A stretch of 64,000 bases of DNA from an uncultured Bacteroidia bacterium (GTDB lineage Bacteria > Bacteroidota > Bacteroidia > Bacteroidales > F082), in assembly GCA_902802535.1 (NCBI GenBank), contig CADCML010000006.1, positions 20,243-84,242 on the forward strand, written 5' to 3'. The translations under genes were made by a program, and so were the position numbers. Numbering within the stretch: the stretch's first letter is position 1; each line of letters starts with the position of its first letter. The notes beneath the pieces are model-generated. The model was not told the origin of the DNA, ran no database searches, and was given only the letters and a program-made list of their open reading frames with translations. Shown piece after piece: positions 17,976 through 49,528 of the stretch.

Positions 17976-18164
17976 TCAAAACAAGTGATCTAACGTGACC
18001 ACTTGCTGGAAAACGCCGCTATGGTAGCCGTATTTCAGCCCGAAAGTGGTGACGAGAGTCATTTGTAGACTTTGTTTGCGGTTGATATGGTCTAACATCC
18101 ATTGCAGGCGATGGCGCAGTTAGCGTTCATTCATTTCACGAATTTCTTCTTCTCTACCTACCAT
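17976..18164 (-). pseudogene. Collapsed remnant of an AAA ATPase-nuclease gene
   Basis: Read on the minus strand, the sequence starts MVGREEEIREMNER, then an in-frame TAA at 18120-18122, then continues in the same frame through LRHRLQWMLDHINRKQ and LVTTFGLKYGYHSG to VVTLDHLF and a stop. The opening matches the start of the two ATPases at 24.8 and 31.6 kb (IGRQEEI, IGREHEI) and the end matches their C-terminus (LLTTYGLNEG ... LTMDDLF). About 400 residues in the middle, including Walker motifs, are gone. A perfect TATCTTTG promoter element and a long palindrome remain upstream. Confidence 0.7.
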
Positions 18165-18178
18165 TTTTCTTAAAAAGT

Positions 18179-18231
18179 GTTTTATTTTTTCTGCAAAGAT
18201 ATAAAAAATATCAATTGCAGAAAAATAAAAC
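18179..18231. promoter_or_regulatory. Long palindrome overlapping the promoter of the ATPase remnant
   Basis: Left arm 18179-18202 and right arm 18208-18231 are near-perfect complements around a five-base loop; the shared core is GTTTTATTTTT and CTGCAA followed by GATAT. The -7 element TATCTTTG (minus strand, 18194-18201) lies inside the left arm, so a protein bound to the palindrome would cover the promoter. Confidence 0.6.
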
Positions 18232-18267
18232 GATGTTTTTGATTGAAATTTTTCTGGAATAAGATTT

Positions 18268-19146
18268 TTACTTCTTATTAAACGCCTCCAATACCTTGGC
18301 AGAGTAGGTCTTTGAAACCGGTACGGAATCCAGCCCTTCGCGCTCGAAGTCGATGACGAAACCATCGGATTCGTTGTGAAGCACGCTCACCTTGCTGATG
18401 TTGACGATATAAGAACGGTGACAGCGCATCAAACTGCTGGAATCCACGCAATTATCGGCGATGGTCTGCATCTTGCAGCGAAGCATGTAGCTGGCGATGT
18501 TGCCGCTGCGTTGGTAGAACACGTTGATGTAGTTGTCCTCCGCCTTGATATAGTACAGGTTGTCGAGTTTGACGGACAATTTCAGGTTGCCGTTGTTGTC
18601 CATCAGGTTGATGATTTCGGTGTGTTGGGGCATCACTTCGTCGTCCGATTCCACCGTGTCGCTCTTGGTGAGCATGAGGCGTTGTCTCGTGTCTTTCAGT
18701 AAGATAGAAAGAATGGTGACGGTATAGGGTACGGCCAAGGCGACAAAGGTAATCAACACGCTTTTCGCATAGAGATAGCCGAAACTGTGGTCGGTGGACT
18801 GAATCTCAAAATAGGAAATCAGGGTGTGGCACACTGCGATAATCATGATTTCGAGGAACAGCCAAAGAATGTACACCCCAAATGGGAAATGCCTGCTTTT
18901 GCGGATGACCCAGTTCATTAGCACGCGGCTGAGTGCCAGAAACAAGGTGCCTGTGCCCACAAACGCCGCCGTAATGAAGAAATAATTTCCGCGTCCCACC
19001 TGAAACCAAGCAGTTTCCGAAAACGGGACGTATGCGGTCAGGAACACCAAAGCGAACAGCGTCGAGATAATCACATTAAGCACCTGCCCGACGGGTTCTG
19101 TCAGGCACTCAGGCGTTTGCGTTATCAGGCGTTTTGGGAATTTCAT
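18268..19146 (-). CDS. Membrane-anchored LytTR family transcriptional regulator
   Basis: 292 residues from MKFPKRLITQTPECL. Four hydrophobic segments in the first 165 residues (for example VIISTLFALVFLTAY and YFFITAAFVGTGTLFLAL) precede a C-terminal LytTR DNA-binding domain (NLYYIKAEDNYINVFY ... LMRCHRSYIVNISKV). No response-regulator receiver or kinase gene is adjacent, so it probably senses through its own membrane part. A TATCTTTG element at 19170-19177 (minus) gives a short leader and excludes the longer upstream start at 19218. Targets are unknown. Confidence 0.85.
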   Translation of the reverse strand: MKFPKRLITQTPECLTEPVGQVLNVIISTLFALVFLTAYVPFSETAWFQVGRGNYFFITAAFVGTGTLFLALSRVLMNWVIRKSRHFPFGVYILWLFLEIMIIAVCHTLISYFEIQSTDHSFGYLYAKSVLITFVALAVPYTVTILSILLKDTRQRLMLTKSDTVESDDEVMPQHTEIINLMDNNGNLKLSVKLDNLYYIKAEDNYINVFYQRSGNIASYMLRCKMQTIADNCVDSSSLMRCHRSYIVNISKVSVLHNESDGFVIDFEREGLDSVPVSKTYSAKVLEAFNKK

Positions 19147-19169
19147 AGCGTTTGTTCTAAACAACGCGG

Positions 19170-19177
19170 CAAAGATA
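19170..19177 (-). promoter_or_regulatory. -7 promoter element of the LytTR gene
   Basis: TATCTTTG on the minus strand, exact TAnnTTTG, 24 bases upstream of the chosen start codon. Confidence 0.6.
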
Positions 19178-19315
19178 TGAATTTTTTCGGGATTGCCTTG
19201 CGGCAAGAAATCTTTCAAGAATCGAAATCAAAATCTATCAAAATCAATCATATTAAGTCTGAGGTCGTCTGAAAAGCGATTTTGAATGATTTTAAAAGCA
19301 GATTTTGAACAATTT

Positions 19316-19798
19316 CTATGCGAAGCATATCCCATTAATAACCTCCCAAACCAAAGAACCTTCAAAACCCTTCTGCATAGCGTATGCGGCCAATTTGCGT
19401 TTTCTCTCGAAATCGTTTTCAGCCTTCACGGTCTTGGATTTTGTTTTCAAAATGTCAATAAGCCGCTGGCGATAAAGGTCTTCGTCGGTCTGTGTCAAAG
19501 CTTCGTCAATAATGTCCTTGGCAATACCTTTCTGTATGAGGTGAAAACGAATCTTGTTTATTCCCCAGCCGCTTTGGTTGATTTTGCCACGGACATAACT
19601 TCTGGCAAACCTTTCATCGTTGACAAAACGGTTGTCCACCAGATAATCAATGATTTTGTCTTTTTCTTTTTGCGGAAGGTCAAAGGTTTTCAATTTGTCC
19701 CGCACATCCTTCACGCAACGTTCCTGATAGGCGCAATATTTGGCCATTTTGTCCAAAACTTGGTCAGGAGTGAGCGGTTGGGCGGCTTGTTTGGGCAT
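19316..19798 (-). CDS. recX: Regulatory protein RecX
   Basis: 160 residues from MPKQAAQPLTPDQVL. RecX three-helix repeats are seen in ALDKMAKYCAYQERC-type, IIDYLVDNRFVNDERFARSY and GWGINKIRFHLIQKGI blocks. The protein binds RecA filaments and limits strand exchange. The frame stays open upstream inside the neighbouring gene, but only this ATG gives a RecX-like protein and it overlaps the upstream stop by ATGA. recA is not nearby. Confidence 0.88.
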   Translation of the reverse strand: MPKQAAQPLTPDQVLDKMAKYCAYQERCVKDVRDKLKTFDLPQKEKDKIIDYLVDNRFVNDERFARSYVRGKINQSGWGINKIRFHLIQKGIAKDIIDEALTQTDEDLYRQRLIDILKTKSKTVKAENDFERKRKLAAYAMQKGFEGSLVWEVINGICFA

Positions 19799-20817
19799 CA
19801 GCAATCGATTTTGAGGTCGCCTTCTTTGATCCAACCGATTTTTCTGAAAATCAGGCCGAAAAGCCATGATAGTACGGCGGGCAGAATGAAGCAAACCAAA
19901 GCCATACCCATCCACATGTTTGCGCCGCCTTCGGGCATGGCCGTGTAGATGCCGATAGGTCCGACAAGGCCACAGGTGCCCATGCCGGAGCCTATGGGAA
20001 TGTTCTCCAAATGGAAAACACAAGTCGAAATAGGGCCAGTGATGGCAGCAGTGAGCAGCACGGGAATCCAAATGCGCGGGTTCTTCACGATGTTGCCCAT
20101 TTGCAGCATCGAAGTACCTAAACCCTGCGCGACGAGCCCGCCCCAACGATTTTCCCTGAAACTCAGGATGGCGAAACCAATCATCTGGGCGCAGCAGCCG
20201 GCTGTGGCCGCGCCACCCGCCAATCCGCCCAAACCAATGGCGAGGCAGATGGCCGCTGAACTGATGGGCAAAGTGAGCACCATGCCGATGACTACGGAGA
20301 CGACGATACCCATGAGGAAGGGCTGCATTTGTGTGGCGTTCTCGATGAAGGTGCCGAGGGCGGTCATCACCCTTTGGATGGGCGCACCCACAGCGTAGGC
20401 CACCAAAACGCCGCTGATAATGACCACAGCAGGTGTGACCAAAATATCCACTTGAGTCTCCTTGTAGACCATTTTGCCCAACTCAATCGCCACAATGACA
20501 GCGGCATACGCTCCCATTGGGCCACCGAGTTCATTGCCCGCAATGCCCACAGCAATGGCGCTGAACAGCACCAAGCCTTCGCAGCCTAATTTGTAGGCGA
20601 TGGCCACCGCGATGGCGGCTCCTGTGGCGGCCTTGGCGTATTTCGCGATAGTGGCGAAAGCCTCAATGCCCGTCTTGTCGCCCAAGGTTTGGAAGATGGT
20701 GCCGATGAGCAGCGAGGCGAACAAACCCAAGGCCATAGCGCCAAGAGCGTCGACAAAATAGGCGCGCCAGGTGAGGTCGATGTTTTTGCGTTTCAGGAAG
20801 TCCTTGAAGTTTCCCAT
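19798..20817 (-). CDS. PTS EIIC-type membrane transporter
   Basis: 339 residues with eight to ten hydrophobic segments, many Gly/Ala-rich (GLGGLAGGAATAGCCAQM, GMGTCGLVGPIGIY). It matches the PTS_EIIC_2 family annotated as PTS sugar transporter subunit IIC in Bacteroidota. No EIIA, EIIB, HPr or EI genes are nearby, so it may act without phosphotransfer; substrate is unknown. Its stop overlaps the recX start by four bases. Confidence 0.8.
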   Translation of the reverse strand: MGNFKDFLKRKNIDLTWRAYFVDALGAMALGLFASLLIGTIFQTLGDKTGIEAFATIAKYAKAATGAAIAVAIAYKLGCEGLVLFSAIAVGIAGNELGGPMGAYAAVIVAIELGKMVYKETQVDILVTPAVVIISGVLVAYAVGAPIQRVMTALGTFIENATQMQPFLMGIVVSVVIGMVLTLPISSAAICLAIGLGGLAGGAATAGCCAQMIGFAILSFRENRWGGLVAQGLGTSMLQMGNIVKNPRIWIPVLLTAAITGPISTCVFHLENIPIGSGMGTCGLVGPIGIYTAMPEGGANMWMGMALVCFILPAVLSWLFGLIFRKIGWIKEGDLKIDC

Positions 20818-20831
20818 GAGTTATTATGCAT

Positions 20832-20934
20832 CGCTTTGCGTCACTGCGAGGCACGAAGCAGTCCAGAGTTAAAGTTCAATAGTTAGTATTACTCTGGATT
20901 GCTTCGTCGTTCCTCCTCGCAATGACGCGAAGCG
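20832..20934. repeat. Long imperfect inverted repeat (REP-like)
   Basis: Left arm about 20832-20869 contains GCGTCACTGCGAGG, ACGAAGCA and TCCAGAGT; right arm about 20891-20934 contains ACTCTGGATTGCTTCGT and CCTCGCAATGACGC, its complement with small gaps. The loop is about 20 bases. It fills the gap between the EIIC and nicotinamidase genes and can form a strong RNA hairpin downstream of the nicotinamidase gene. Similar ACTCTGGATTGCTTCGT-type repeats are scattered in many bacterial genomes. Confidence 0.65.
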
Positions 20935-20940
20935 TGTCAA

Positions 20941-21660
20941 TTAGAATTCAATACCTTGGATGCCATTCTCCTTCATCAGGTCGGCGAGCTTGGTGTCGTT
21001 GTCGTCGACGGCGGCGAGGCAGTTCGTGACGATGCGGATTTTCTTGGCAGGATAGAAGGCCATCAGGTCTTTGGTGGTCTCATAGACGCAATAATCGGTG
21101 GCGATACCGCAAATGTCGATGCCTTCAAATTTTTCATTTTCAATGACATGGCGCAGTTTTTCACCGCTATGCTCGTTTTGGAAGATACTGAATTCTTCCT
21201 TGTCAGCTAAATCGCCCTTCTCCATGAAGTGGACTTGAATATTGCTTCCGTTGCCCATCAGGCCGTCAAGAACTTTGAGCAGGCGGGGATAGATATTCAT
21301 GCCTTCGGTGCCTTGCACGCAATGGGGTGGGAACACACCACCTTGCTCCACGAACGAGCAATGGTTTTTGGGATGTGCGTCTTGGGTGGCAATAATCCAA
21401 CCATAGTTTTTCCAAGCGCCTTCGTTCAGGGCTTTGGCGAGGTAGTCCATGGCAGCGGGACCTTTGGCCGTAGCCAAACTGCCTGTGGTGAAGTCGACTT
21501 GCGGGTCTACGATGATGAGCAGCCGATTAGGCAGTTGGGGCTTTTCCGCTTTGGCTTCGGTCTTGTCTTCTTTTTGTCTCTTCTCTTTTTTGTCGTTGTT
21601 GCAACCCGTCATGGCGAGGGCGGCGATGAGCACAATGGCTCCGATGATGCTTTTCTTCAT
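20941..21660 (-). CDS. Nicotinamidase-like isochorismatase, predicted lipoprotein
   Basis: 239 residues from MKKSIIGAIVLIAALAMTGC, a lipoprotein signal peptide with the lipidated Cys at residue 20, then a charged linker. The catalytic domain shows Asp in IIVDPQVDF, metal ligands in TQDAHPKNH and the nucleophile Cys in GIATDYCVYET. Nicotinamidase (PncA) turns nicotinamide into nicotinate for NAD salvage and is normally cytoplasmic; here the domain should sit outside the inner membrane. The longer frame upstream is excluded by a TATTTTTG element at 21691-21698. Confidence 0.82.
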   Translation of the reverse strand: MKKSIIGAIVLIAALAMTGCNNDKKEKRQKEDKTEAKAEKPQLPNRLLIIVDPQVDFTTGSLATAKGPAAMDYLAKALNEGAWKNYGWIIATQDAHPKNHCSFVEQGGVFPPHCVQGTEGMNIYPRLLKVLDGLMGNGSNIQVHFMEKGDLADKEEFSIFQNEHSGEKLRHVIENEKFEGIDICGIATDYCVYETTKDLMAFYPAKKIRIVTNCLAAVDDNDTKLADLMKENGIQGIEF

Positions 21661-21690
21661 GATTGAATGATGTTTGTTAGAAATTTGCTG

Positions 21691-21698
21691 CAAAAATA
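21691..21698 (-). promoter_or_regulatory. -7 promoter element of the nicotinamidase gene
   Basis: TATTTTTG on the minus strand, exact TAnnTTTG, 31 bases upstream of the start codon. Confidence 0.55.
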
Positions 21699-21765
21699 CG
21701 GAAATTTTGAATTGCCATAAAGGGAATTGACGATTTTCGAACTTGCTATGAATGTTTTACTTATA

Positions 21766-22887
21766 TCAATGGTTCTCAAGCCACCGGGAAAGAAAGACAT
21801 TGTAAACACTATAAGAGAGGCCTTCAAGGGTTGAGTTGGCAAGTATCAGTTCCTTGTCTATAAGAGCTTCCAACAGTCGCTGGGAATTAGCCGATGTGCC
21901 AATATTGTATTTTTGGATGAATTGGGTTGAATAAGGTTTCTCAACGGATTGCTCTTTGGCCACGGCCTTCAAATAATTCCATTGGTTGGAAGTCAGCAGG
22001 TTGCGCCACTGGATGAAAGTTTGTTCGTTCTCTTTCAGGATTTGGTTGGCCGATTTCAGCACTTCTTCTTTGTCAATCTTCTTGTTGCTTTTCAGAAACA
22101 CATGATTACAAAGCGATTGCGTGTAGAATGTGTGCAGTTTTGTCCAGTCAAGAATAAAGTCGAGAGCTTCCTCCGTGACAGTCTTTTTCCCTTTCTCAAG
22201 CATTCTGATAATGAACTCAGCGTAGACAGCCCTGTCAATTTTCTCGAGGTAAAGACAACGGGTACTTTCGTAGAATGGGCTTCGGGCATCGGTGAACATC
22301 TCTGTCATTATGTGTTTCTTGCTTCCACAAAAGATAAACTGCACATTTCGCAGGGGTTGGATATAAGAACGCAACAAAGCCTCCATGTTGATACCATAAT
22401 ATCTGATTTGCTGGAATTCATCTATGGCGACAATGGTCTTTTTGTCTTGTTTCTCAATAAATTCGAAGATGGAAGCAAGCGTTTGCTTTTTCTCATGGTC
22501 GGTGCGGAAAGTAAGCGTCAGTTCGGGATTTCCCGACACGGGATCGTAACTGAGCATGGGACGAAGGCCACCGAGGAATTGGAAAAACGACTTGATGGCT
22601 TTTTTCTTTTCCATAGAGGCGATGACGGCTTCGGAAAACACTTTGATGAAATCTTCTAAGGTTTCTGTCGCATAAATATCGACATAGCATGTGCTGACAT
22701 TGGCTTTTTGTTGCTTTATTTCATCAAAAACGCGATAAATCAGTCCTGTTTTTCCGTATCTACGAGGTGAAATTAGAGTAATATTTGAGCCATTTCGAAG
22801 GTATTCTACGATGGTTTTTGTCTCTTCTTCTCGGTCGCAGAAATACTCCTTAGATATATATGGTACAAGGGCAAACGGATTTTCCAT
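21766..22887 (-). CDS. AAA family ATPase (archaeal-type, ATPase_2-like)
   Basis: 373 residues from MENPFALVPYISKEYF. Walker A is the degenerate SPRRYGKT, Walker B is KKTIVAIDEFQQI, and a sensor-type FIFCGSKKHIM follows, all typical of the archaeal-type STAND-like ATPases. A winged-helix-like C-terminus (about 290-373) follows; unlike the ATPases at 24.8 and 31.6 kb it lacks the D...EIK nuclease-like motif. The start at 22914 is upstream of the predicted transcription start and is rejected. The gene stands alone and its promoter lies between the arms of an 11-bp palindrome. The role is unknown. Confidence 0.8.
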   Translation of the reverse strand: MENPFALVPYISKEYFCDREEETKTIVEYLRNGSNITLISPRRYGKTGLIYRVFDEIKQQKANVSTCYVDIYATETLEDFIKVFSEAVIASMEKKKAIKSFFQFLGGLRPMLSYDPVSGNPELTLTFRTDHEKKQTLASIFEFIEKQDKKTIVAIDEFQQIRYYGINMEALLRSYIQPLRNVQFIFCGSKKHIMTEMFTDARSPFYESTRCLYLEKIDRAVYAEFIIRMLEKGKKTVTEEALDFILDWTKLHTFYTQSLCNHVFLKSNKKIDKEEVLKSANQILKENEQTFIQWRNLLTSNQWNYLKAVAKEQSVEKPYSTQFIQKYNIGTSANSQRLLEALIDKELILANSTLEGLSYSVYNVFLSRWLENH

Positions 22888-22892
22888 AATAC

Positions 22893-22961
22893 TTTTTTTG
22901 CTATCTATTTTCAATGCAAAAATACTACTTTTTTTGTATAATACAAAATAGATAGTAAAAA
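22893..22961. promoter_or_regulatory. Palindrome enclosing the promoter of the 21.8-kb ATPase gene
   Basis: Perfect arms CTATCTATTTT (22901-22911) and AAAATAGATAG (22945-22955) are flanked by T-run and A-run extensions. The minus-strand -7 element TATTTTTG (22917-22924) lies in the 33-base spacer, so both arms bracket the promoter. Confidence 0.6.
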
Positions 22962-22989
22962 AATGGTTTTTTTGAGTTTTTCAGCCATT

Positions 22990-24819
22990 CTAATTCTTGG
23001 CAGAATACAACTTTTTGATCCAATCTGAATGCCCGATTTTGCGCAAGGCATTCTTTACCCACTCGCGGTTTTCGGGCTTGTACCAGAAGAAAAAGCGTTG
23101 TTGGGCAAGTTTTTCCTCTTTCGTTTTGGCACAAAAGACGGGTTCCAAGGTGTAGGGGTCGTAGCCGGAGTAATAGATTTCGGTGGCCAAGGTCATGGGG
23201 GTGGGGGTGAAGTCTTGCACTTGTTCCAGATGATAGCCTAATTCCTTGGTTCTCACCGCCAAATCGGCCATATCTTCAAGGTAGCAGTCGGGATGTGAGG
23301 AGATGAAATAGGGGATGAGTTGCTGGTTCAGATGTTCCTTTTCGTTGATTTGGTCGAACTTCTTTTTCAGTTTGACGAACATGTCGAACTTGGGCTTGCG
23401 CATGAGTTTTAGGACGGCATCGGAAGTGTGCTCTGGCGCGACTTTCAGCCTTCCGCTGACGTGTCGCGTCACCAATTGGCGGAAGTATTCATCGTAGCCC
23501 ATCGCCTTGTTTTCTTCAGGTGTGCTGTCGTGCAGAAACAGGTCGTAGCGAATGCCTGAGCCGATGGTGGCTTTCTTGACCTTCGGGTGCGCGTCCACCT
23601 CTTTATATATGTCAATCAGCGGGTGGTGGTCGGTGTTGAGGTTTTTGCAAACGGTGGGTTGCAGGCAGGTCGGACGGGCGCATTTTTCGCAAAAACGTTC
23701 GTCCTTGCCCTTCATGCGGTACATGTTGGCCGAGGGCCCGCCCAAGTCGCTGATGTAACCCTTAAAGTCTTCCATTTCTGTGACTTTCTCCACCTCGCGC
23801 ATAATGGATTCCTTACTTCGTGAAGCCACAAACTTGCCTTGGTGTGCCGAAATGGTGCAGAAAGCACAACCGCCAAAGCAGCCTCGATGTAAATTGACAG
23901 AGTGCCGAATCATTTCGTAGGCGGGGATGACGCCGCGCTTGGCGTATTTCGGATGCGGCAGCCTTGTGTAAGGCAAATCGAAGGAAGCGTCAATCTGTTC
24001 GGTGGTGAAAGTCGGCAAGGGCGGGTTGATAATAAGTCTTTGGTTGCCAATGTCTTGAATCAGTCTTGCCGCATGTTTCTTGTTCGATTCTTCTTCGATG
24101 TGGCGGAAATTGGAGGCATATTTCTTTTTGTCTTTGAGGCAGACTTCGTGCGAAACGAGTTCGATGGTCTCGCCCTCGAAAGCAGGAAGCGGTTGTTTCT
24201 TGTCTTGCAAAAAGAAGGTCTGCTTGATGTCGGTCAATTCGCTGACTTTCTTTCCGTTTTGGATGGCCTTAGCGATTTCCACCATGGTGAGTTCGCCCAT
24301 ACCGTAAACCCCGATGTCAGCCTTGGAATCGACCAAAATGCTGGGTTTCAGGCTGTCCGACCAGTAGTCATAGTGCGTCACGCGCCTCAACGAGGCCTCA
24401 ATGCCGCCGATGACGACGGGCACATCGGGATAGAGTTGCTTGAGGATGTTGCTATAGACCACCGAGGCGTAGTCGGGACGGAAGCCTGCCTCGCCGCCCG
24501 GGGTGTAAGCATCGTTGCTGCGCAGGCGTTTGTTGGCGGTGTAGTGGTTCACCATAGAGTCCATGCAACCCGCCGACACGCCGAAAAACAACCTCGGCTT
24601 GCCAAACTTCTTGAAATCACGCAAATCGTCCCTCCAATTGGGTTGCGGAATCAATGCGACACGAAAACCGTTGTGCTCCAGCACCCTCCCAATGACTGCT
24701 GCCCCGAAAGCTGGATGGTCGACATACGCATCGCCCGTGACGAACACGATGTCCACCTCGTCCCAACCGCGCAGGTCAGTTTCTTTTTTCGTTATGGGGA
24801 GCCAATCGAGTAGAGTCAT
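22990..24819 (-). CDS. YgiQ family radical SAM protein
   Basis: 609 residues, full length for UPF0313/YgiQ. The N-terminal half holds a cobalamin-binding-like region; the radical SAM cluster is HRGCFGGCAFCTIS (CX3CX2C), followed by VEKVTEMEDFKGYISDLGGPSANMY and the C-terminal DUF3362 part with YHLEQVQDFTPTPMTLAT and YYSGYDPYTLEPV. The substrate is unknown for the family. Its start overlaps the stop of the ATPase gene upstream by four bases, so the two are probably translated together. Confidence 0.9.
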   Translation of the reverse strand: MTLLDWLPITKKETDLRGWDEVDIVFVTGDAYVDHPAFGAAVIGRVLEHNGFRVALIPQPNWRDDLRDFKKFGKPRLFFGVSAGCMDSMVNHYTANKRLRSNDAYTPGGEAGFRPDYASVVYSNILKQLYPDVPVVIGGIEASLRRVTHYDYWSDSLKPSILVDSKADIGVYGMGELTMVEIAKAIQNGKKVSELTDIKQTFFLQDKKQPLPAFEGETIELVSHEVCLKDKKKYASNFRHIEEESNKKHAARLIQDIGNQRLIINPPLPTFTTEQIDASFDLPYTRLPHPKYAKRGVIPAYEMIRHSVNLHRGCFGGCAFCTISAHQGKFVASRSKESIMREVEKVTEMEDFKGYISDLGGPSANMYRMKGKDERFCEKCARPTCLQPTVCKNLNTDHHPLIDIYKEVDAHPKVKKATIGSGIRYDLFLHDSTPEENKAMGYDEYFRQLVTRHVSGRLKVAPEHTSDAVLKLMRKPKFDMFVKLKKKFDQINEKEHLNQQLIPYFISSHPDCYLEDMADLAVRTKELGYHLEQVQDFTPTPMTLATEIYYSGYDPYTLEPVFCAKTKEEKLAQQRFFFWYKPENREWVKNALRKIGHSDWIKKLYSAKN

Positions 24820-26246
24820 TTGCTGGGATTATAAAACAGGTCGTCCATTGTCACTTGGTATTGCACGGAGGCGGAATACTCGTTCTTGAACAATCCATGA
24901 GGTGTTATCCAAGTAGGGATGATGCCGCATTTGGTTTTCGTTGCATTGCTGAAAGCAGAGATACGGGCTTTCAGTTTCTTGTCCTCGCTTGCCGTGATGG
25001 TGTATTCCGAATAGGTGTATTTGATTTCGCAAAGGTTAATCAAATGATCGGCGCGCTCGATGATGAGGTCGATTTGGGCTTTTGGCGTAGTGTTGTTTCG
25101 CCAGGAATAAAACTCCACAGCAATACGGTCAAGCCCCAAAGCATGGCGGATTTGGTATTGGTGGGCGACACAGATTCTCTCGAAGGCAAGTCCCAACCAT
25201 GTGTTGGCTACGGGGGTGTTGAGGTGTTGCTCCCAGTAGTCCTCCGTAGTGATTTTCTTGGAGAAAGTGAGGTAAAAGAACGAGAAGAAGTCCACCAATT
25301 GGTAATAGGCATCCTTCATCTTTGGCTTTCCGTTCACTTTGGAGATGTACCGTCTGATGAGGTCGCAGTGTACAAGGTTGTCAAGTTGCTTGGTCAAGGA
25401 GCCGCTTGACGGAGTTTTCAGTGCTTCCTCTAATTCGGATCGGGTCATGCCCTGCTTGTTTTTCCCCAAGACTTCCACGATGCGGAGATAAGGCTCAGGC
25501 GATTTGAAAAGCGAGGCGTAAAGGCGGTTGTATTCTTGGCTGAGTTCGGCATTTTTTCGGAAATAGAGCCTGTCGATATTCTGGGCAAGACTTTCCTGTT
25601 TGTCCAAAAGACTGAGATAATAAGGAACGCCGCCCAACATCATGTAGGTTTCCACCACGTTTTGCCGAGGCCAATGGATGCCCAAGGTGTGCAGATAGGC
25701 CTCGGTTTCGGCGAGGTTGAACTGCCTTAGATAGATGCTGTGCGTGATGCGGTTGTGCAGCCCTCCGTGGTTGTTGATGATGTTGCTCACCATCCATGAG
25801 GTAGCTGACCCGCATACGATGAGGGTGACATTCTTCCGCAATGAAGCCCAAGTGTTCCAAAAATGCCCCAACGCCTTGACGAAACCCGATTTCGGCGTGT
25901 CGAAGCAAGGCAACTCGTCTATATAGATGATGCAACGGCTTTTGCGGTTATGTTGCTCCAAAGTCGTTTTGAGCATCTCAAAGGCTTCGAGCCAGTTTTT
26001 TGGTTTTTTCCCCTGATAGCCTGCCACGGCCAAGGCACTTGTGAAGGCGAACATTTGGTCTTCTTTTTTCCCGCCGATGATGCCGGAGGCTGCAAAGGAA
26101 AACTTGTTCTCGAAAAACTGTTGGATGAGATAGGTCTTGCCCACGCGCCTTCTTCCGTAAACCGCAACAAACTCAGGCTTTCCGGATTTTTGCAGTTTTT
26201 GGAGGAGTCGTATTTCCTCTTGTCGTCCGATGAAGTTCTTATCCAT
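24816..26246 (-). CDS. AAA ATPase with C-terminal PD-(D/E)XK-like domain
   Basis: 476 residues from MDKNFIGRQEEIRLL. Walker A GRRRVGKT and Walker B CIIYIDELP lie in the N-terminal archaeal ATPase (ATPase_2) domain; LIVCGSATSWMVSN is the sensor region. The C-terminal part, AQIDLIIERADHLINLCEIKY, has the D...EXK spacing of DUF234/PD-(D/E)XK-type domains. It is a close paralogue of the gene at 31.6 kb. A TATCTTTG element (26270-26277) fixes the start, and two tandem palindromes lie directly upstream. Its stop overlaps the ygiQ start. Confidence 0.83.
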   Translation of the reverse strand: MDKNFIGRQEEIRLLQKLQKSGKPEFVAVYGRRRVGKTYLIQQFFENKFSFAASGIIGGKKEDQMFAFTSALAVAGYQGKKPKNWLEAFEMLKTTLEQHNRKSRCIIYIDELPCFDTPKSGFVKALGHFWNTWASLRKNVTLIVCGSATSWMVSNIINNHGGLHNRITHSIYLRQFNLAETEAYLHTLGIHWPRQNVVETYMMLGGVPYYLSLLDKQESLAQNIDRLYFRKNAELSQEYNRLYASLFKSPEPYLRIVEVLGKNKQGMTRSELEEALKTPSSGSLTKQLDNLVHCDLIRRYISKVNGKPKMKDAYYQLVDFFSFFYLTFSKKITTEDYWEQHLNTPVANTWLGLAFERICVAHQYQIRHALGLDRIAVEFYSWRNNTTPKAQIDLIIERADHLINLCEIKYTYSEYTITASEDKKLKARISAFSNATKTKCGIIPTWITPHGLFKNEYSASVQYQVTMDDLFYNPSK

Positions 26247-26269
26247 GTTTTTTGTCTGAAATTCAGCCG

Positions 26270-26277
26270 CAAAGATA
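26270..26277 (-). promoter_or_regulatory. -7 promoter element of the 24.8-kb ATPase gene
   Basis: TATCTTTG on the minus strand, exact TAnnTTTG, 24 bases upstream of the start codon and 13 bases from the nearer palindrome. Confidence 0.6.
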
Positions 26278-26290
26278 CAAAAAAATATAT

Positions 26291-26393
26291 TCGATAGCTC
26301 CCCAAAACTCATTTTTTTTGATAGATTTGGGGAATTATCGATGCTATAAATCCCCAAAACTCAAAAAAATTGATAGAAATGGGGGATTATCGA
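26291..26393. repeat. Two tandem 52-bp palindromic units upstream of an ATPase gene
   Basis: Unit one has arms TCGATAGCTCCCCAAAA (26291-26307) and ATTTGGGGAATTATCGA (26325-26341), 14 of 17 paired. Unit two repeats CCCCAAAACTCA, TTGATAGA and GGGGGATTATCGA exactly 52 bases further on (about five DNA turns). The A/T run in the middle is inverted between units (T-rich in one, A-rich in the other). Together they occupy the -33 and upstream region of the ATPase promoter. Confidence 0.65.
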
Positions 26394-26777
26394 ATCGATT
26401 AGGATGACATTTGTGGCAGATTTCCGCAAGATTTGTTTCTTTTTTCCTTGCCCAATCCGAAAATTCTGTATTTTTGCCCCTGTCAATCCGAGAGAAAACG
26501 GGTTGATGAAGAAAGCGCATTTTTCGCTTTATTCTGCTAATGGTGAACTTGGACAATTCGCTTCGTAAGCAGGGATAAGTGGAAAGAAGGGCTTCCATTG
26601 GTTTGCAATCATTATTACGATGATACTCCCAGTGGAGCAATTCTTGACCTTATTTTGCTTACACGGGAGTCCAAGCCCAACCATTAGGAAATAGGGCAAA
26701 GATGAATGGCTCCACTCTCTTCATGCATCAAGTAGATTCCCGTTTGGGCCGTTAGGGACAAACAAAACAAGTTTCAA
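26394..26777 (+). other. Long intergenic leader region
   Basis: No credible gene is present. A perfect -7 element TATTTTTG lies at 26469-26476 on the plus strand, so the small secreted protein gene would have a leader of about 300 bases. That leader has no extended coding frame and may hold structured RNA, but no known riboswitch was recognised. Confidence 0.4.
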
Positions 26778-27092
26778 ATGAAGTTGAGAAACTTATCATT
26801 GAGAATGCGGAAAACCATAGCAATGATGCTTGCTTTGTCGTTGCCGTTCAGCGTATTGGCGCAAGGCGGATTGTTTCAACGAGGTGATGGCAATACAGAC
26901 CAAAACTCGGGACTTTTGCGCGATGGAGAGGCAACAATTACGATGACCAACCAAGCCTTTGGCAATCCCAATGGAAGCGACCTGACCAATCAGACCTTTG
27001 GCGCACCGATAGGCAGCGGACTATTCGTCATGCTGATGGCTGGCGCAGGTTATGCCGCATTGAAAACAAACAAGAAAACCAACAAAAAGTAA
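26778..27092 (+). CDS. Small secreted protein with C-terminal membrane helix
   Basis: 104 residues. A signal peptide (TIAMMLALSLPFSVLAQ) is followed by a short Gly/Asn-rich body with the repeated phrase TNQAFGNPNGSDLTNQTFG, then APIGSGLFVMLMAGAGYAAL and a Lys/Asn-rich end. A terminal hydrophobic stretch with a basic tail, opened by a PIGSGL-type motif, is seen on many small Bacteroidales surface proteins. It starts a two-gene unit with the lipoprotein gene 14 bases downstream. Function unknown. Confidence 0.65.
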   Translation: MKLRNLSLRMRKTIAMMLALSLPFSVLAQGGLFQRGDGNTDQNSGLLRDGEATITMTNQAFGNPNGSDLTNQTFGAPIGSGLFVMLMAGAGYAALKTNKKTNKK

Positions 27093-27106
27093 AAGGAGAA
27101 TCGAAA

Positions 27107-28495
27107 ATGAAAAGGATTAGCACAATCATAATGGCATTGGTCATGGTGATGACAATGGCACAATGCAAGAAGGACAACCCAACCACACCTGACAATCAGA
27201 ATAATGTTGTGACCATCACCCTTGATGTGAAGAACAATAATGGCTCAAAAGTGGATGTGAATACTACTACAGGTACCGTTGATTTTGAAACTGGCGACAA
27301 GGTTTATGTCGGAAGCGGCGGCAAGTATGTAGGATTCTTGACCCACAACGGCACCAATTTCGTGGGCAACATCACCAACCCGACTGAAAACCAACCTTTA
27401 CAATTCTATTTTCTTGGCAATGTAACGCCAACCGAAACGCTTTCCGCAGGAACAACGGAAGAATGTTCGGTAATCATCAGCGACCAAACAGAGCATTTGC
27501 CTGTGATTTCGTGTGCAGCCTCATTTGAAAACTATGTTTCGAGTTTGACATCCTACACAGGGCATTTGCTGAACAAGTGCGCTTTGGTGAAGTTCAATGT
27601 GACCACGCCTTCTAACTCGCCTATCTGCATTACTGGAATGAATAACAAAGTGACGGTAGATTTCTCCCAAAACACGATAACGCCCAGCCAAGATGGAGAA
27701 GGAATAATCAAGTTGCCTGCTGGAAGTGGAGAGAATGTTGAGAAATGGGCTATTTTGTTGCCGCAAGAGGCGTTGGAAGAAGGAGAAGAAGGGTCTGTTT
27801 ATTCGGAGGATGGTAATTATATTGGAATACATCCATCAATTCCTACTATTATTGAAAATGGGTATTTTGCGGAAGGGATTGTAGTATTAATTGTAATGCA
27901 TTCCTATGTTGATCTAGGCCTTCCAAGCGGCCTTTTGTGGGCTACTTGCAATGTAGGTTCAGACTCACAGGAGGACTATGGTGACTATTTTGCTTGGGGT
28001 GAGACTCAACCTAAAAATACTTACAACTGGGACACGTACCAGTATTGCAATGGTGGCGACCATACATTCACCAAGTACTGTTATGATTCTAGTTATGGTT
28101 ATAATGGTTATACTGATGAATTGACTTTCCTGTTGCCCGAAGACGATGCTGCCTCGGTTATATGGGGTAGTAATTGGCGTATCCCCACTGAGGCCGAATG
28201 GGAGGAACTTTATAATAACACAACTGTTATATGGACATCTCTAAACGGTGTGAATGGTCGGCTTTTTACTGCTTCGAATGGGAATACTCTTTTCTTGCCT
28301 GCCGCTGGAGCCATTGGTGGAAGTTGGCACCAACATGAAGGAATAGGCATGTATTGGTCGAGTTCGCTCAGTGTTATGGACTATTATGGTCCCGACTATG
28401 CGAAAGAATTCATTTTCAGTATGGATTATTATCGTTTAGGTGCAAATGCTCGTATCCTTGGTGAAACTATTCGAGCAGTTCGTTCTGTTGAGTGA
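27107..28495 (+). CDS. Lipoprotein with FISUMP/DUF1566-type C-terminal domain
   Basis: 462 residues. A lipoprotein signal peptide (ALVMVMTMAQC, lipidated Cys near residue 21) is followed by a Thr/Asn-rich N-terminal domain of the type in Bacteroidales surface proteins. From about residue 265 comes YVDLGLPSGLLWATCNVG, YFAWGETQPK, NWRIPTEAEWEEL and GMYWSSS, the hallmark of the Fibrobacter succinogenes major paralogous (FISUMP) domain family. These domains are found in secreted proteins; the ligand is unknown. It probably shares a transcript with the small secreted protein. Confidence 0.82.
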   Translation: MKRISTIIMALVMVMTMAQCKKDNPTTPDNQNNVVTITLDVKNNNGSKVDVNTTTGTVDFETGDKVYVGSGGKYVGFLTHNGTNFVGNITNPTENQPLQFYFLGNVTPTETLSAGTTEECSVIISDQTEHLPVISCAASFENYVSSLTSYTGHLLNKCALVKFNVTTPSNSPICITGMNNKVTVDFSQNTITPSQDGEGIIKLPAGSGENVEKWAILLPQEALEEGEEGSVYSEDGNYIGIHPSIPTIIENGYFAEGIVVLIVMHSYVDLGLPSGLLWATCNVGSDSQEDYGDYFAWGETQPKNTYNWDTYQYCNGGDHTFTKYCYDSSYGYNGYTDELTFLLPEDDAASVIWGSNWRIPTEAEWEELYNNTTVIWTSLNGVNGRLFTASNGNTLFLPAAGAIGGSWHQHEGIGMYWSSSLSVMDYYGPDYAKEFIFSMDYYRLGANARILGETIRAVRSVE

Positions 28496-28725
28496 TTTTA
28501 ATTCGTGATGCCAACCATCAAGCCGCTACAAGACCTAAGTAGAGAGGACTTTGGAGAGACTTAATGGTTGAAGATCCAAGATAGGGTGCAAAAGGCTTGG
28601 AAGAAGGAAAGGAACGCGATTATTTTCTTTTTATCTTTTCTAAATTATGCATATAAATAGTTTGATAATCAGATTATTTAAATTCTAAAGAAATTGATAA
28701 ATAGCGTTTACTGATAAAATATTAT

Positions 28726-28733
28726 TACTTTTG
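28726..28733 (+). promoter_or_regulatory. -7 promoter element of the A/T-rich cassette
   Basis: TACTTTTG, exact TAnnTTTG, 19 bases upstream of the first start codon. The surrounding 120 bases are strongly A/T-rich. Confidence 0.55.
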
Positions 28734-28752
28734 CAAATTAAATTTTTGTCAA

Positions 28753-29331
28753 ATGGAAATCAATGCTTCTATTGTTAGTATAGGTGGATGGAATTCGCGT
28801 ATTTTCACCCCTCAATGGGTGGCAACCAATGTGTTTGGTATTAATGATGGGACAATTATGGAATTGAAACTTGACGAAAGACAAATGACCTTGTTGTATA
28901 AAAGCGGTGATATTGAGTTTTCGGCAACAGAAATTGGTGTTGAATTTAAAACACATAACACAACTGTTGATAATTGTCGCAAACTTGAAAGATGTTATCA
29001 ACATTTGGTAGAGTTGTTGCCATATACTCCAATTCGAGCGTTTGGATACAATTATAATTTGATATTCCTTCTCAATGATTTTCAAAATACTAGACTTGCA
29101 CAATTTGTAGAGAGAAAAGACATTGGTGCTGATTACAAAAGTACATCTTTTTCTTTCACGGTTTCTAAAGGAAAAGCACTTCGTTCGGTAAATGTCAATT
29201 TTCAGGACGATAAAGTAGAGGTTGTTTGTAACTTTCAATATAATAAAATTACTGATATTCCTGAAGTCAGTGTGTTTGACTGTATTAAGGACGAATTAAA
29301 GCATATTTTAGGCAATGACACAGACTTTTAA
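28753..29331 (+). CDS. Hypothetical protein, first gene of an A/T-rich cassette
   Basis: 192 residues, soluble, no signal peptide and no family recognised. Visible blocks are MEINASIVSIGGWNSRIFTP near the start, an alternating beta-like middle and FDCIKDELKHILGN near the end. Base composition is much more A/T-rich than the flanking housekeeping genes, which suggests recent transfer. It overlaps the next gene by 17 bases, so the pair is translated together. Confidence 0.6.
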   Translation: MEINASIVSIGGWNSRIFTPQWVATNVFGINDGTIMELKLDERQMTLLYKSGDIEFSATEIGVEFKTHNTTVDNCRKLERCYQHLVELLPYTPIRAFGYNYNLIFLLNDFQNTRLAQFVERKDIGADYKSTSFSFTVSKGKALRSVNVNFQDDKVEVVCNFQYNKITDIPEVSVFDCIKDELKHILGNDTDF

Positions 29332-29821
29332 TATAATAACAAAATCATTACAACCCAATTTAGAATTGGAAGAAGAAGTAGAGGTAGTTGGAGCTACTTG
29401 TTCTTTTGTTCAAAACAAAAAAACAGGTGTTTTTATTGCTGATTATAAGGCTTATCCTAGTCAGGGAGAATTTGCAAAGACTCTCGTAGGGAGTATAATG
29501 GGTGCAAAAAAGGAGAAACTCTATGTTGAGGCTCTTCGCAATCTTTATAAAAGAATTGATTTCCTTGAACTCAACCAAGCATTGGAAAGCAAAGAAATTG
29601 ATGAAGACCAATTTGAAAAAGAGTTGACAGTTAACGAAGATAAGTATCTTATCCCTTATCCAGAAAAAAGGCCAGATGCTATACAGGTTTTATTGGTATC
29701 CGACATAGTTCAGAAAATCGAAAGAGTCAAAGAAATGACCGTTGACGAGGCTTCAGAACTATTCCAACTTGACTTAAGTACCGCTGAGAATGTTTTAGAG
29801 GAGATGAAAACCTTAGCTTAA
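29315..29821 (+). CDS. Hypothetical protein, second gene of the A/T-rich cassette
   Basis: 168 residues, acidic. It has a beta-rich start (EEEVEVVGATCSFVQNKKTG) and a helical C-terminal half that ends MTVDEASELFQLDLSTAENVLEEM, which looks like a small helical recognition or dimerisation bundle. No known family. It starts inside the end of the upstream gene and is followed after 12 bases by the third gene. Confidence 0.6.
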   Translation: MTQTFNIITKSLQPNLELEEEVEVVGATCSFVQNKKTGVFIADYKAYPSQGEFAKTLVGSIMGAKKEKLYVEALRNLYKRIDFLELNQALESKEIDEDQFEKELTVNEDKYLIPYPEKRPDAIQVLLVSDIVQKIERVKEMTVDEASELFQLDLSTAENVLEEMKTLA

Positions 29822-29833
29822 TAGTTTATTGTT

Positions 29834-30271
29834 ATGGTTGAGTATTATCAACAAGGAGAATGCGTTGATGGGCACCGAGTGCAGATTACAACTAGAAAGT
29901 TGGAATCGAAAAGTTTTAGTTTAGCACCAACAGGATTCAAGGGTTTGAAATACAATTGCTCTCTCAATAGTAAATCTATTATTGACACTCCACTGTCAAT
30001 AGAAGATGAAAAAACTGCAAAAAAGAAGAAGAAAACAGTTCATTGTGCTCAAGGAGATGGGTTAAATTGTAGTAAAATGTATTTTATTGCAGAAACCACT
30101 AGAAAGTTGAATTGTTTCAAAGTGGCAATGATGAGCGGACAGCATGAATGTAGTCAAGGAAAGCCCAATACTAGAGTATATGCTGAAATTCAAACACCAT
30201 TTGAGCATATTGTTCATGCAACGGAAAAAAAGTTGCAAGAATTAAAACAAAAAGAAATAGAACAAAAATAA
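29834..30271 (+). CDS. Hypothetical Cys-containing basic protein, third gene of the cassette
   Basis: 145 residues, basic, with six to seven cysteines of which HCAQGDGLNC and HECSQG could bind metal. The middle has a Lys run (AKKKKKTVH) and the C-terminus is a charged helix (KKLQELKQKEIEQK). It resembles no family known to me. Same low-GC composition and same strand as the two preceding genes. Confidence 0.55.
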   Translation: MVEYYQQGECVDGHRVQITTRKLESKSFSLAPTGFKGLKYNCSLNSKSIIDTPLSIEDEKTAKKKKKTVHCAQGDGLNCSKMYFIAETTRKLNCFKVAMMSGQHECSQGKPNTRVYAEIQTPFEHIVHATEKKLQELKQKEIEQK

Positions 30272-30741
30272 CTTTTTTTGCAAAAACTGTTTTTTTTACT
30301 TTCGGTACAATTATCCACGTTGACACGTTCTTCCGAATTGAAAATTCCGAAGTCCTGATTATCACCATTTTCAATGCGCGAATGAATATTGCGGTTGCCG
30401 TGGTACGACAGCCCTACAGCCCGGGCGGTATGGTGTAGGGCTGTCACAAAGTTGCTGAGCCTGTCGAAGCATCGTGGCAGCCGCTTGTTTATGTCATATT
30501 TTCTCCAACGAGTCTCTCATTACACGCTTATTGTTTAAGCGTTACATAATACTTTACAACAAAACAGCGGAGCTTCAAAAACTCTATCGTTTTTGGTGAA
30601 TACTTATGGATTGAAATACTCCTCCGCCATCCGATTAATTTCCTCAATGTCCAAGTTATCAAGTTGGATTGTCGGTAGCACTTTGAAAGCGAAAAATTCC
30701 GCTTTTTTTGCAAATACTCATCACATTTCAAAAAATCGCTG
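30272..30741. other. Intergenic region with a perfect inverted repeat and a coding remnant
   Basis: GACAGCCCTACA (30407-30418) and TGTAGGGCTGTC (30434-30445) are exact complements with a 15-base spacer. On the minus strand at 30604-30717 a 37-codon frame without a good start ends LDNLDIEEINRMAEEYFNP; it may be the tail of a decayed gene, perhaps an antitoxin. Nothing else is apparent. Confidence 0.4.
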
Positions 30742-30749
30742 TATCTTTG
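30742..30749 (+). promoter_or_regulatory. -7 promoter element of the toxin-antitoxin pair
   Basis: TATCTTTG, exact TAnnTTTG, 19 bases upstream of the antitoxin start. Confidence 0.6.
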
Positions 30750-30768
30750 CCATCAAAACAACATCATT

Positions 30769-31062
30769 ATGTCACAATCAGCATACACTATCCGTTTGGA
30801 TTCAGACTTGAAAAAACGCTTCGATACGCTTTGCGAAGGCTTCGGCATGAGTGCTTCCACGGCGTTTAATGTTTTTGTTCGGGCTGTTGTCCGTCAGCGC
30901 AAGATTCCTTTTGAAATCGAGATGTCGGAAAAAGACGAAAGTTTTGAAAAAGGCAGACAGGCATTCCTTGAAATCAGAAGGCAAGCCGAAGAAGGTCGCT
31001 TTCCTGACCTAACATTGGAAGAAATCAATGAAGAAATCAGATTGGCAAGAGAAGGCAAATGA
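30769..31062 (+). CDS. RelB/DinJ family antitoxin
   Basis: 97 residues. The N-terminal ribbon-helix-helix IRLDSDLKKRFDTLCEGFGM and SASTAFNVFVRAVVRQRKIPFEI is the standard RelB/DinJ signature. It would bind its own promoter and neutralise the toxin encoded immediately downstream, whose start overlaps by four bases (ATGA). DinJ-type antitoxins usually pair with RelE/YafQ toxins; here the partner is a PIN protein. Confidence 0.85.
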   Translation: MSQSAYTIRLDSDLKKRFDTLCEGFGMSASTAFNVFVRAVVRQRKIPFEIEMSEKDESFEKGRQAFLEIRRQAEEGRFPDLTLEEINEEIRLAREGK

Positions 31063-31484
31063 AGAATCATTTTGTTGTTATTGACACTAATGTCCTCGTT
31101 TCAGGTTTAATTAGCCGAAATCCTGATTCACCAACTTTGGGAATCGTGAATTACTTGCTTGCCAACAAAGGCATTATTACCCCAATGTATAATGAAGAGA
31201 TTTACAAGGAATATGAAAATGTCCTACATAGAACGAAATTTAATTTTGAACCATCTACAGTAAATGATGTTCTGGAAAGAATTCGGGACATAGGTATTTC
31301 AAGTGAAAGGAAATCTTCCAAGGAATTTATTCCCGACCCGAAAGATGTTGTGTTTTACGAAGTTGCCTTGTCGAAAGAGGATTCGTTCTTGGTTACGGGC
31401 AATATCAAACATTTCCCGAAAGTAGATATGGTGGTCACACCAGCAGAAATGATGGAAATCATAAAGCGTAATTTGGAAGAATAG
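31059..31484 (+). CDS. PIN-domain toxin
   Basis: 141 residues of the 'putative toxin component, PIN family' type. Acidic residues of the nuclease centre are in VIDTNVLVSG, EEIYKEYENVL, DPKDVVFYEVALS and SFLVTGNIKHFP. PIN toxins cut RNA. It is translationally coupled to the antitoxin gene, so the two form a type II module. Confidence 0.85.
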   Translation: MKNHFVVIDTNVLVSGLISRNPDSPTLGIVNYLLANKGIITPMYNEEIYKEYENVLHRTKFNFEPSTVNDVLERIRDIGISSERKSSKEFIPDPKDVVFYEVALSKEDSFLVTGNIKHFPKVDMVVTPAEMMEIIKRNLEE

Positions 31485-31506
31485 TTTTCAATACCGACCG
31501 AAAATC

Positions 31507-31559
31507 AATCTGAGTTTTTTCCAAAATCGAGAAAAAATCACAATTTTGGAAAAAACTCA
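31507..31559. repeat. Palindromic 53-bp repeat, left copy flanking an ATPase gene
   Basis: TGAGTTTTTTCCAAAAT (31511-31527) and ATTTTGGAAAAAACTCA (31543-31559) are exact 17-base complements. The whole 53-base stretch recurs at 33050-33102 in the same orientation with one mismatch. It lies about 20 bases upstream of a possible -7 element (TTCCTTTG, 31582-31589) of the ATPase gene. Confidence 0.75.
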
Positions 31560-31613
31560 TTGTGGTTTCAGAATAATTTATTTCCTTTGCATCCTGTTAG
31601 AATATAGAATGTT

Positions 31614-33038: not shown

Positions 33039-33049
33039 TCGGTTTTTGT

Positions 33050-33102
33050 AATCTGAGTTTTTTCCAAAATCGATAAAAAATCACAATTTTGGAAAAAACT
33101 CA
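33050..33102. repeat. Palindromic 53-bp repeat, right copy flanking an ATPase gene
   Basis: Direct copy of 31507-31559; the only difference is t at 33074 against g at 31531. The arms at 33054-33070 and 33086-33102 pair perfectly over 17 bases. It starts 11 bases after the ATPase stop codon and could also act as a hairpin terminator. Confidence 0.75.
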
Positions 33103-33134
33103 ACCGAAAATCCTACACCCCTTTTCAACGAGTT

Positions 33135-49453: not shown

Positions 49454-49528
49454 GTAGGGGCGGACCCATGTGTCCGCCCTTTATTTGTCAATTTTTGTTT
49501 CAGGGCGGACACGTGAGTCCGCCCCTAC
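49454..49528. repeat. Inverted pair of GGGCGGACAC repeats
   Basis: Two 27-base arms (49454-49480 and 49502-49528) are complementary at 25 of 27 positions across a 21-base loop; both include GTAGGGGCGGAC and GTGTCCGCCC. Each arm is itself partly palindromic. It sits between two minus-strand genes, 6 bases before the start of one and just after the stop of hutH, so it might act as hutH terminator. Confidence 0.7.

Follow-up and report, generated by a model that had tools for sequence, protein, structure and literature searches.

In a stretch of 64,000 nucleotides from an uncultured Bacteroidia bacterium (Bacteroidales; F082; assembly GCA_902802535.1, contig CADCML010000006.1, positions 20,243-84,242 of the forward strand; referred to below as the window), four loci designated A to D carry genes for ATPase_2-type proteins, or the remnant of such a gene, each accompanied by a long palindrome (Table 1). 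An earlier reading of this DNA (the original prediction) placed these palindromes at the promoters and suggested that each ATPase may recognize its own palindrome for self-repression, or that the palindrome may be a cleavage or replication site. The comparisons described here indicate that the genes of the class to which C, D and the remnant A belong, encoding proteins of about 475 amino acids (aa), are on balance probably single-gene mobile units, with private palindromes that are read by the unit's own protein and lie both at its promoter and at the unit ends.

ATPase loci of the window

All four palindromes described originally are present in the window. Three appear in a mechanical inverted-repeat list; the fourth, at 26.3 kb, is missing from that list and is present as two tandem copies of the family type. 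The -7-like TATTTTTG lies inside the spacer of the 22.9-kb palindrome, and -7-like elements lie just downstream of the palindromes at 26.3 and 31.6 kb, all as first described; at 18.2 kb the -7-like TATCTTTG straddles the inner end of an arm, instead of lying within the arm as had been stated. The 18.2-kb locus is a gene remnant: its 47-codon C-terminal piece is identical at 18/47 positions to the 31.6-kb protein (E=1e-9). The statement that no other gene of the window carries such a palindrome was too strong, since upstream inverted repeats of comparable score are also present at 5 of 36 window control genes. Likewise, the four loci had been treated as one kind, when two protein classes are present: judged by sequence, C, D and A are of the ~475-aa class, and B, at 22.9 kb, is of a separate, nuclease-less class of ~375 aa. 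The conclusions on recognition code, promoter phasing and mobility given below are those for the 475-aa class. D also has a downstream palindrome, starting shortly after its stop codon; because the asymmetric spacer is copied too, the upstream and downstream palindromes of D are direct repeats.

Pfam assigns D to ATPase_2 (E=9.9e-17), with DUF234 (2.8e-4) just below its cut-off. The AlphaFold2 (AF2) model of D, with a mean confidence score (pLDDT) of 91.9 from a 62-row alignment (35.8 for a single-sequence fold), is read here as predicting the domain order AAA+, winged helix (~251-317) and PD-(D/E)XK nuclease (~346-450); GRRR-GKT, D111-E112, D395, E409 and K411 are invariant in 62 sequences. 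Both D (E=1.3e-190, residues 1-473 of 474) and C (E=7.8e-186, 3-473 of 474) match the PADLOC model PDC-S27 from end to end. B shows no match to PDC-S27 at E<=1, its PADLOC matches being limited to two weak ones to other models, and falls outside this family. The available passages of the survey that lists PDC-S27 as a phage defence candidate describe it as a fusion of an ATPase with PD-(D/E)XK, the same domain make-up as that of C and D (PMC12988326).

Table 1. ATPase genes, palindromes and associated elements of the window
Feature	Position	Strand	Basis or remark
D, intact 474-aa ATPase-nuclease (predicted)	31614..33038	+	Pfam ATPase_2, PADLOC PDC-S27, AF2 model
D upstream palindrome	31502..31568, core 31511-31559	.	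half-sites TTCCAAAATC/TTCCAAAATT, spacer 13
D downstream palindrome, near-copy of the upstream one in direct orientation	33054..33102	.	inverted-repeat list; overlooked in the original prediction
D -7-like element TTCCTTTGC	31582..31590	+	~30 bp past proximal half-site
ACCGAAAATC, left copy, possible 10-bp target duplication at D	31497..31506	.	same repeat seen for 98% identical locus L032
ACCGAAAATC, right copy, possible target duplication at D	33103..33112	.
C, intact 476-aa ATPase-nuclease (predicted), class of D	24816..26246	-	PADLOC PDC-S27; Pfam
C palindrome 1	26300..26332	.	CCCCAAAACT, spacer 13
C palindrome 2, tandem copy	26352..26384	.
B, 373-aa ATPase_2 protein, different class	21766..22887	-	no nuclease domain in Pfam
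B palindrome	22893..22963	.	-7-like TATTTTTG within spacer
A, C-terminal remnant (47 codons) of 475-aa-class gene	17976..18119	-	match to D C-terminus
A palindrome	18172..18239	.	region 74% identical over 104 bp to region upstream of locus L056

Palindrome architecture, promoter phasing and recognition code

The window's genome has 41 ATPase_2 matches, 26 of them over the family cut-off, and the D protein is matched in 30 of 40 genomes of the genus, with 0-29 matches per genome (fragments counted). Most of these are incomplete metagenome-assembled genomes (MAGs). Fetching 30 loci from the window's own genome, 30 from the genus search and 60 further regions taken down the list of that search, to the exclusion of its later entries, gave 118 distinct proteins of at least 300 aa (106 of at least 420 aa), 113 of them with enough flanking DNA; the two protein classes are pooled in this set. 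An upstream inverted repeat scoring at least 12 occurs at 79/113 family genes, compared with 5/36 window controls and 9/49 neighbor genes, and a downstream one at 59/113, compared with 7/36 window controls and 26/49 neighbors (which share the same intergenic DNA). Sequence common to both flanks (score of at least 50) is found at 56/113 family genes, 0/36 window controls and 1/49 neighbors. These thresholds are the authors' own choice, and C is counted as lacking an upstream palindrome because its start codon was misplaced in the counts. The check first proposed, whether orthologues lack palindromes or controls have them as often, was made within the genus and did not refute the pairing of gene and palindrome, although no palindrome is called at a minority of family genes.

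Beyond the genus, the best 80 of 569 relatives in a named collection (which may include members of the window's genus) come chiefly from gut and rumen MAGs, most of them labeled Bacteroidales or kin, with Lachnospiraceae, Fibrobacter, Kiritimatiellae, Treponema, Synergistaceae and more among the other labels (MAG labels can err for mobile genes); 57 of these 80 have an upstream palindrome (score of at least 12) and 19 a shared downstream copy. In the ~375-aa class (38 genes), an upstream palindrome scoring at least 10 is present in 27/38, compared with 5/36 window controls at the same settings, and a shared downstream palindrome in 2/38. The palindromes of this class (22893-22963; loci L284-L313) are often AT-rich, and some span the -7 box.

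A half-site of 10 bp, roughly TGCNRAAWCT, was fitted to 336 inverted repeats from 184 genes. Among the 287 palindromes that pass a filter requiring agreement between the two halves, 193 have half-sites spaced by 13 or 14 bp, the model having been fitted on the same palindromes. The spacer tends to contain a run of at least five A or T (171 of 243 palindromes with an 8-16-bp spacer, compared with 17% of shuffled spacers). A passing palindrome is present at 155/184 genes, upstream only in 68, on both sides in 70 and downstream only in 17, and the half-sites of the upstream and downstream palindromes of one gene have 7.8 of 10 bases in common (n=70), compared with 4.8 for random genes. A strict scan of the 1.12 Mb of fetched, ATPase-enriched DNA finds 124 palindromes near ATPases, one elsewhere and none in the reversed sequence; in the window the 26.3-kb palindrome is the sole scorer, that at 31.5 kb falling under the threshold. 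Across 60 whole genomes the D palindrome occurs 12 times, adjoining a D-type gene in nine cases and solo in three. Some upstream palindromes depart in form: that of locus L054, for example, has 28-bp arms, far beyond what the half-sites need, and L184 has a tandem palindrome pair whose members are complementary to each other.

The upstream palindromes are set at preferred distances from the promoter. The consensus of the Bacteroidetes-type -7 element is TAnnTTTG, and 72 of 104 genes with an upstream 13- or 14-bp palindrome have this motif downstream of the palindrome, at a distance of 20-21, 30-32 or 39-42 bp in 53 of the 72. For the 66 genes with distances of 10-60 bp, the resultant at a period of 10.5 bp is R=0.73 (best period 10.3), a value reached by 0 of 5000 jittered sets (the maximum in 300 permutations of palindrome position is 0.41) and unchanged in 50 representatives of less than 65% identity. 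The D palindrome itself lies ~30 bp from a -7-like element, with TTCCTTTG there instead of TAnnTTTG. Such phase-locking points to interaction with the transcription machinery; given spacings of 2, 3 and 4 turns, contact with RNA polymerase is no worse an explanation than simple occlusion. Because the upstream palindrome keeps an integral number of helical turns to the -7 box, it is likely that the 475-aa protein controls its own promoter. For the original idea of self-repression this means that the promoter-linked role is supported by the phasing, repression being one of the two directions, with activation, that such control may take.

To relate protein to palindrome, 117 genes with 13- or 14-bp palindromes were reduced to 78 representatives of less than 65% identity, giving 3920 residue/base pairs (mean z score 0.32, standard deviation 1.24). 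The strongest covariation is between residue 281 and base 3 (z=13.1), followed by residue 311 and base 5 (z=10.1), and then by 283/base 2 (z=8.5), 311/bases 7 and 8 (z=8.3 and 7.8), 282/base 0 (z=6.6) and 284/base 0 (z=6.3); in 35 representatives of less than 52% identity, 281/3 and 311/5 remain the two strongest pairs. At residue 281, S goes with C at base 3 (16/18), D with G (21/26) and N with T (15/19); at residue 311, K goes with A at base 5 (26/26) and R with T (21/29). When trained on representatives from the named collection, the residue 281 rule gives the right base 3 in 29/42 genus representatives (majority rule, 16), and when trained on the genus, in 27/36 representatives of the collection (majority rule, 13). 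In 57 disjoint nearest pairs, base 3 differs in 21/29 with residue 281 changed and in 5/28 with it the same (p=5e-5). C played no part in the fit and agrees with the rule: its residues are S281 and K311, and its half-site carries a C at base 3 and an A at base 5.

In the AlphaFold model residues 281-284 are at the start of helix 282-294 and residue 311 is in a turn, 303-312, between two strands; the helix is read here as the putative recognition helix, and the turn as the probable wing, of the winged helix. The original suggestion that each ATPase recognizes its own palindrome is strongly supported for the 475-aa class, where, as in a winged-helix autoregulator, operator bases covary with residues at the N-terminus of the predicted recognition helix and in the wing. 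Taken together, the covariation code and the helical phasing imply that each 475-aa ATPase very probably reads, and would physically bind, its own palindrome at its own promoter.

Relocation, empty sites and solo palindromes

In genome G044, the match of D-type DNA to the window spans 31511-33101, from the edge of one palindrome to the edge of the other, and the flanks differ; this unit is 84% identical overall, with one palindrome copy identical over 49 bases to the downstream one of the window. In 22 hand-chosen pairs of related ATPases, some of which have one or both flanks in common, homology stops within 6 bp of a palindrome's outer edge in 13 (11 left, 4 right); in the pair L073/L084, for example, the homology ends at -93/+58 and the palindromes at -92/+60. 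Four sites have both flanks homologous and hold different ATPases, which at two of these sites are in opposite orientation; at one site the left match extends over just 116-183 bp and could stem from a dispersed repeat. A defined unit thus occurs at different sites with sharp edges, as a transposon does.

Empty counterparts of occupied sites were also found. Several relatives have nothing inserted at the B site, and G018 (485-aa gene, L083), G048 and G055 carry a different ATPase insert there, accompanied by that insert's own palindromes. An empty site in G000, compared with its filled counterpart in G018, has one copy of a 26-30-bp sequence where the filled site has two. At L075, compared with empty G029, the 3' end of the neighboring gene is duplicated over 42 bp (up to ~57 bp by the empty site), and L037 adjoins a 50-bp duplication, also read as the 3' end of its neighbor, for which no empty site was seen. 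D is flanked on both sides by ACCGAAAATC, a possible 10-bp duplication. In a screen for flanking repeats, 22 of 142 are at or above the 99% random level, compared with 3.1 expected.

At other sites the gene is missing and a palindrome remains. The D site of G030 has no gene and one palindrome, still between CCGAAAA-C repeats; G012 and G031 have a single palindromic block where G018 carries the gene; and G021 and G016 have one solo palindrome at yet another site, in a 3-kb locus where no ATPase was found. These solo palindromes look like the result of loss via recombination between the two copies. The second part of the original proposal, a cleavage site, is thereby given some substance, in that downstream copies, relocation at palindrome edges, empty sites and solo palindromes suggest a role in mobility or cleavage. 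It is quite likely that gene and palindromes behave as a mobile unit; that the ATPase-nuclease itself cuts DNA and moves the unit is plausible, if somewhat short of probable.

Several further features were observed around these loci. A RelB-type antitoxin and PIN_3 toxin pair (30769-31484) lies directly upstream of the D palindrome, and small paired open reading frames, which by their layout may be a toxin-antitoxin operon, adjoin the solo palindrome in G021/G016 (L218/L220). A separate dispersed element, GACAGCCCTACA...TGTAGGGCTGTC, occurs near several ATPase loci (window ~30326-30448, L009 and L033). In G019 and G024 (and G037 by coordinates) the gene at 22990-24819, presumably a YgiQ-type radical SAM gene, and that ending at 33135 are adjacent, and the 8.3-kb block 24820-33125 with C and D is absent. 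Three consecutive small genes at 28753-30271 have no Pfam or PADLOC match at E<=0.01, and a GC-rich inverted repeat at 49454-49528 (27-nt arms, 93% complementary) is not of the ATPase type.

Interpretation and relation to known systems

The proposed explanation is that C, D and the remnant A are members of a family of mobile units, each consisting of one gene for an AAA+/winged helix/PD-(D/E)XK protein. The winged helix would bind the element-private palindrome, probably as two subunits across the A/T-tract spacer, and the protein would control its own promoter through the upstream palindrome, which is in helical phase with the -7 box. With the same palindromes at or near its ends, the unit would relocate, insert near gene ends, duplicating ~26-57 bp (at D perhaps 10 bp), and sometimes be lost with one palindrome remaining. 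The likeliest reading is that of a selfish element whose protein recognizes only its own ends, so that many paralogues could coexist without cross-talk.

A number of results weigh against this explanation. No known transposase or recombinase domain is found in the encoded protein, for which Pfam gives ATPase_2, other AAA models and weak DUF234/DUF4143. Of the 155 genes with a palindrome, 68 have it upstream only, 29 of all 184 have no passing palindrome, and some palindromes (the TGCTAAGTC clade) match the spacing only in a shifted register. Regarding the code, both sets used for cross-prediction may hold members of the window's genus (no two representatives being more than 65% identical); 311/base 5 is weak in the nearest-pair test (p=0.028); base 3 is also associated with residues 410, 280 and 444 (p values of 4e-4 to 1e-3); for base 0, residue 284 does only slightly better than the majority rule (22/42 versus 19; 18/36 versus 14); and residue 282 is no predictor of base 4 in cross-set prediction. 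As to mobility, in 9 of the 22 chosen pairs homology does not end within 6 bp of a palindrome edge, and no duplication is seen around the G044 copy. The length of the target duplication is variable (26-30, ~42-57 and possibly 10 bp), unlike that of ordinary transposases, just two duplications are compared with an empty site, and several of the highest matches in the duplication screen represent palindrome flanks or repeats of other kinds. Locus L070 was rejected as a clean insertion with a 44-bp duplication, its flanks being apart in other genomes.

An alternative is that the palindrome is only a winged-helix operator, with gene and operator spread together by ordinary horizontal transfer and homologous recombination and the downstream copy a by-product (a duplication or terminator). 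Helical phasing to the -7 box, the genes with an upstream copy alone and the promoter palindromes of the nuclease-less B class all favor autoregulation of this kind, but it accounts poorly for palindromes on both sides in 70/155 genes, for relocated units that often stop at palindrome edges, for vacated sites that keep solo palindromes and for catalytic nuclease residues that are invariant in 62 sequences, and is considered rather unlikely as the whole explanation. Less probable still is that these are phage defence genes in which the ATPase-nuclease senses invading DNA and the palindrome holds the gene silent. The full-length PDC-S27 match, a patchy, multi-copy distribution and classification as a defence candidate in the available passages of two surveys (PMC12988326, PMC13356809) speak for such a role, which a selfish element may also have; a plain defence gene would not be expected to have private palindromes on both sides, to leave solo scars or to be flanked by target duplications. 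That the palindromes are unspecific hairpins (intrinsic terminators, REP-like repeats or chance AT-rich palindromes) has a negligible probability: the window controls do show that repeats scoring at least 12 occur elsewhere (5/36 upstream, 7/36 downstream), but the 13-14-bp spacing preference, covariation with helix residues and promoter phasing rule out a terminator, hairpin or chance origin, and such palindromes are nearly absent away from ATPases.

Known systems resemble the proposed mobile unit in part. RAYT proteins are Y1 HUH enzymes, and the associated REP palindromes are dispersed in many copies. A RAYT gene is likewise flanked by palindromes specific to its own protein; the ATPase family differs in its AAA+/winged helix/PD-(D/E)XK make-up and in strict palindromes nearly confined to the gene, and no Y1 HUH transposase is found in D by Pfam or structure model. 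A dispersed REP-like repeat was rejected, as 1/125 strict palindromes is away from an ATPase in the fetched DNA and 3/12 D-type copies are solo in 60 genomes. Archaeal Orc1/Cdc6 genes adjoin inverted-repeat sites that are bound by Orc1/Cdc6. These proteins share the AAA+ and winged-helix fold (Foldseek 2qby_B, E=2.1e-9), a likeness by fold alone, as whole-chain superposition is poor (template modeling (TM) score 0.32/0.40); the ATPase family has an extra nuclease domain and many paralogues with private sites. Foldseek also matches STAND/NLR proteins, again with poor whole-chain superposition. The best fold match is the Pyrococcus abyssi Walker ATPase PABY2304 (2qen; E=2.5e-13), also the best PDB sequence-profile match (E=7e-4, query 2-297), with a TM score of 0.48 by query length and a profile match that stops short of the nuclease part. 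TnsC-type AAA+ regulators give a weak profile match (VchTnsC, E=0.0035, query 19-176) that covers just the ATPase core, and membership of a TnsC/Tn7 system was rejected on this ground. PHROGs gives a weak clamp-loader match only, and NCBIfam none over its cut-off.

PDC-S27 is widespread, with 4562 counted in Bacteria and 3503 in Archaea (PMC12988326) and 2865 in a rumen survey (PMC13356809), and the survey passages available make no mention of palindromes, self-recognition, mobility or an anti-phage assay of PDC-S27; among the papers listed by searches of the open-licence literature, none deals with palindromes or mobility in this family. It is tentatively suggested that PDC-S27 is a new class of self-propagating element without a known recombinase, in which the palindrome would serve as address label, promoter switch and element end, and residues 281-284 and 311 would set the 10-bp address. 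The results yield for each protein a predicted DNA site, the specificity residues and the bases read, making the function of the family cheaply testable. Even if the units do no more than regulate themselves, their many naturally diverged pairs of winged helix and operator allow a DNA-recognition code to be deduced. If, instead, the unit moves itself, it would be an element of one gene that lacks any known recombinase, many of the "defence candidates" counted in rumen and archaeal genomes would be selfish elements and defence censuses would need correction; dozens of paralogues would then share a genome without cross-reaction thanks to their private 10-bp addresses.

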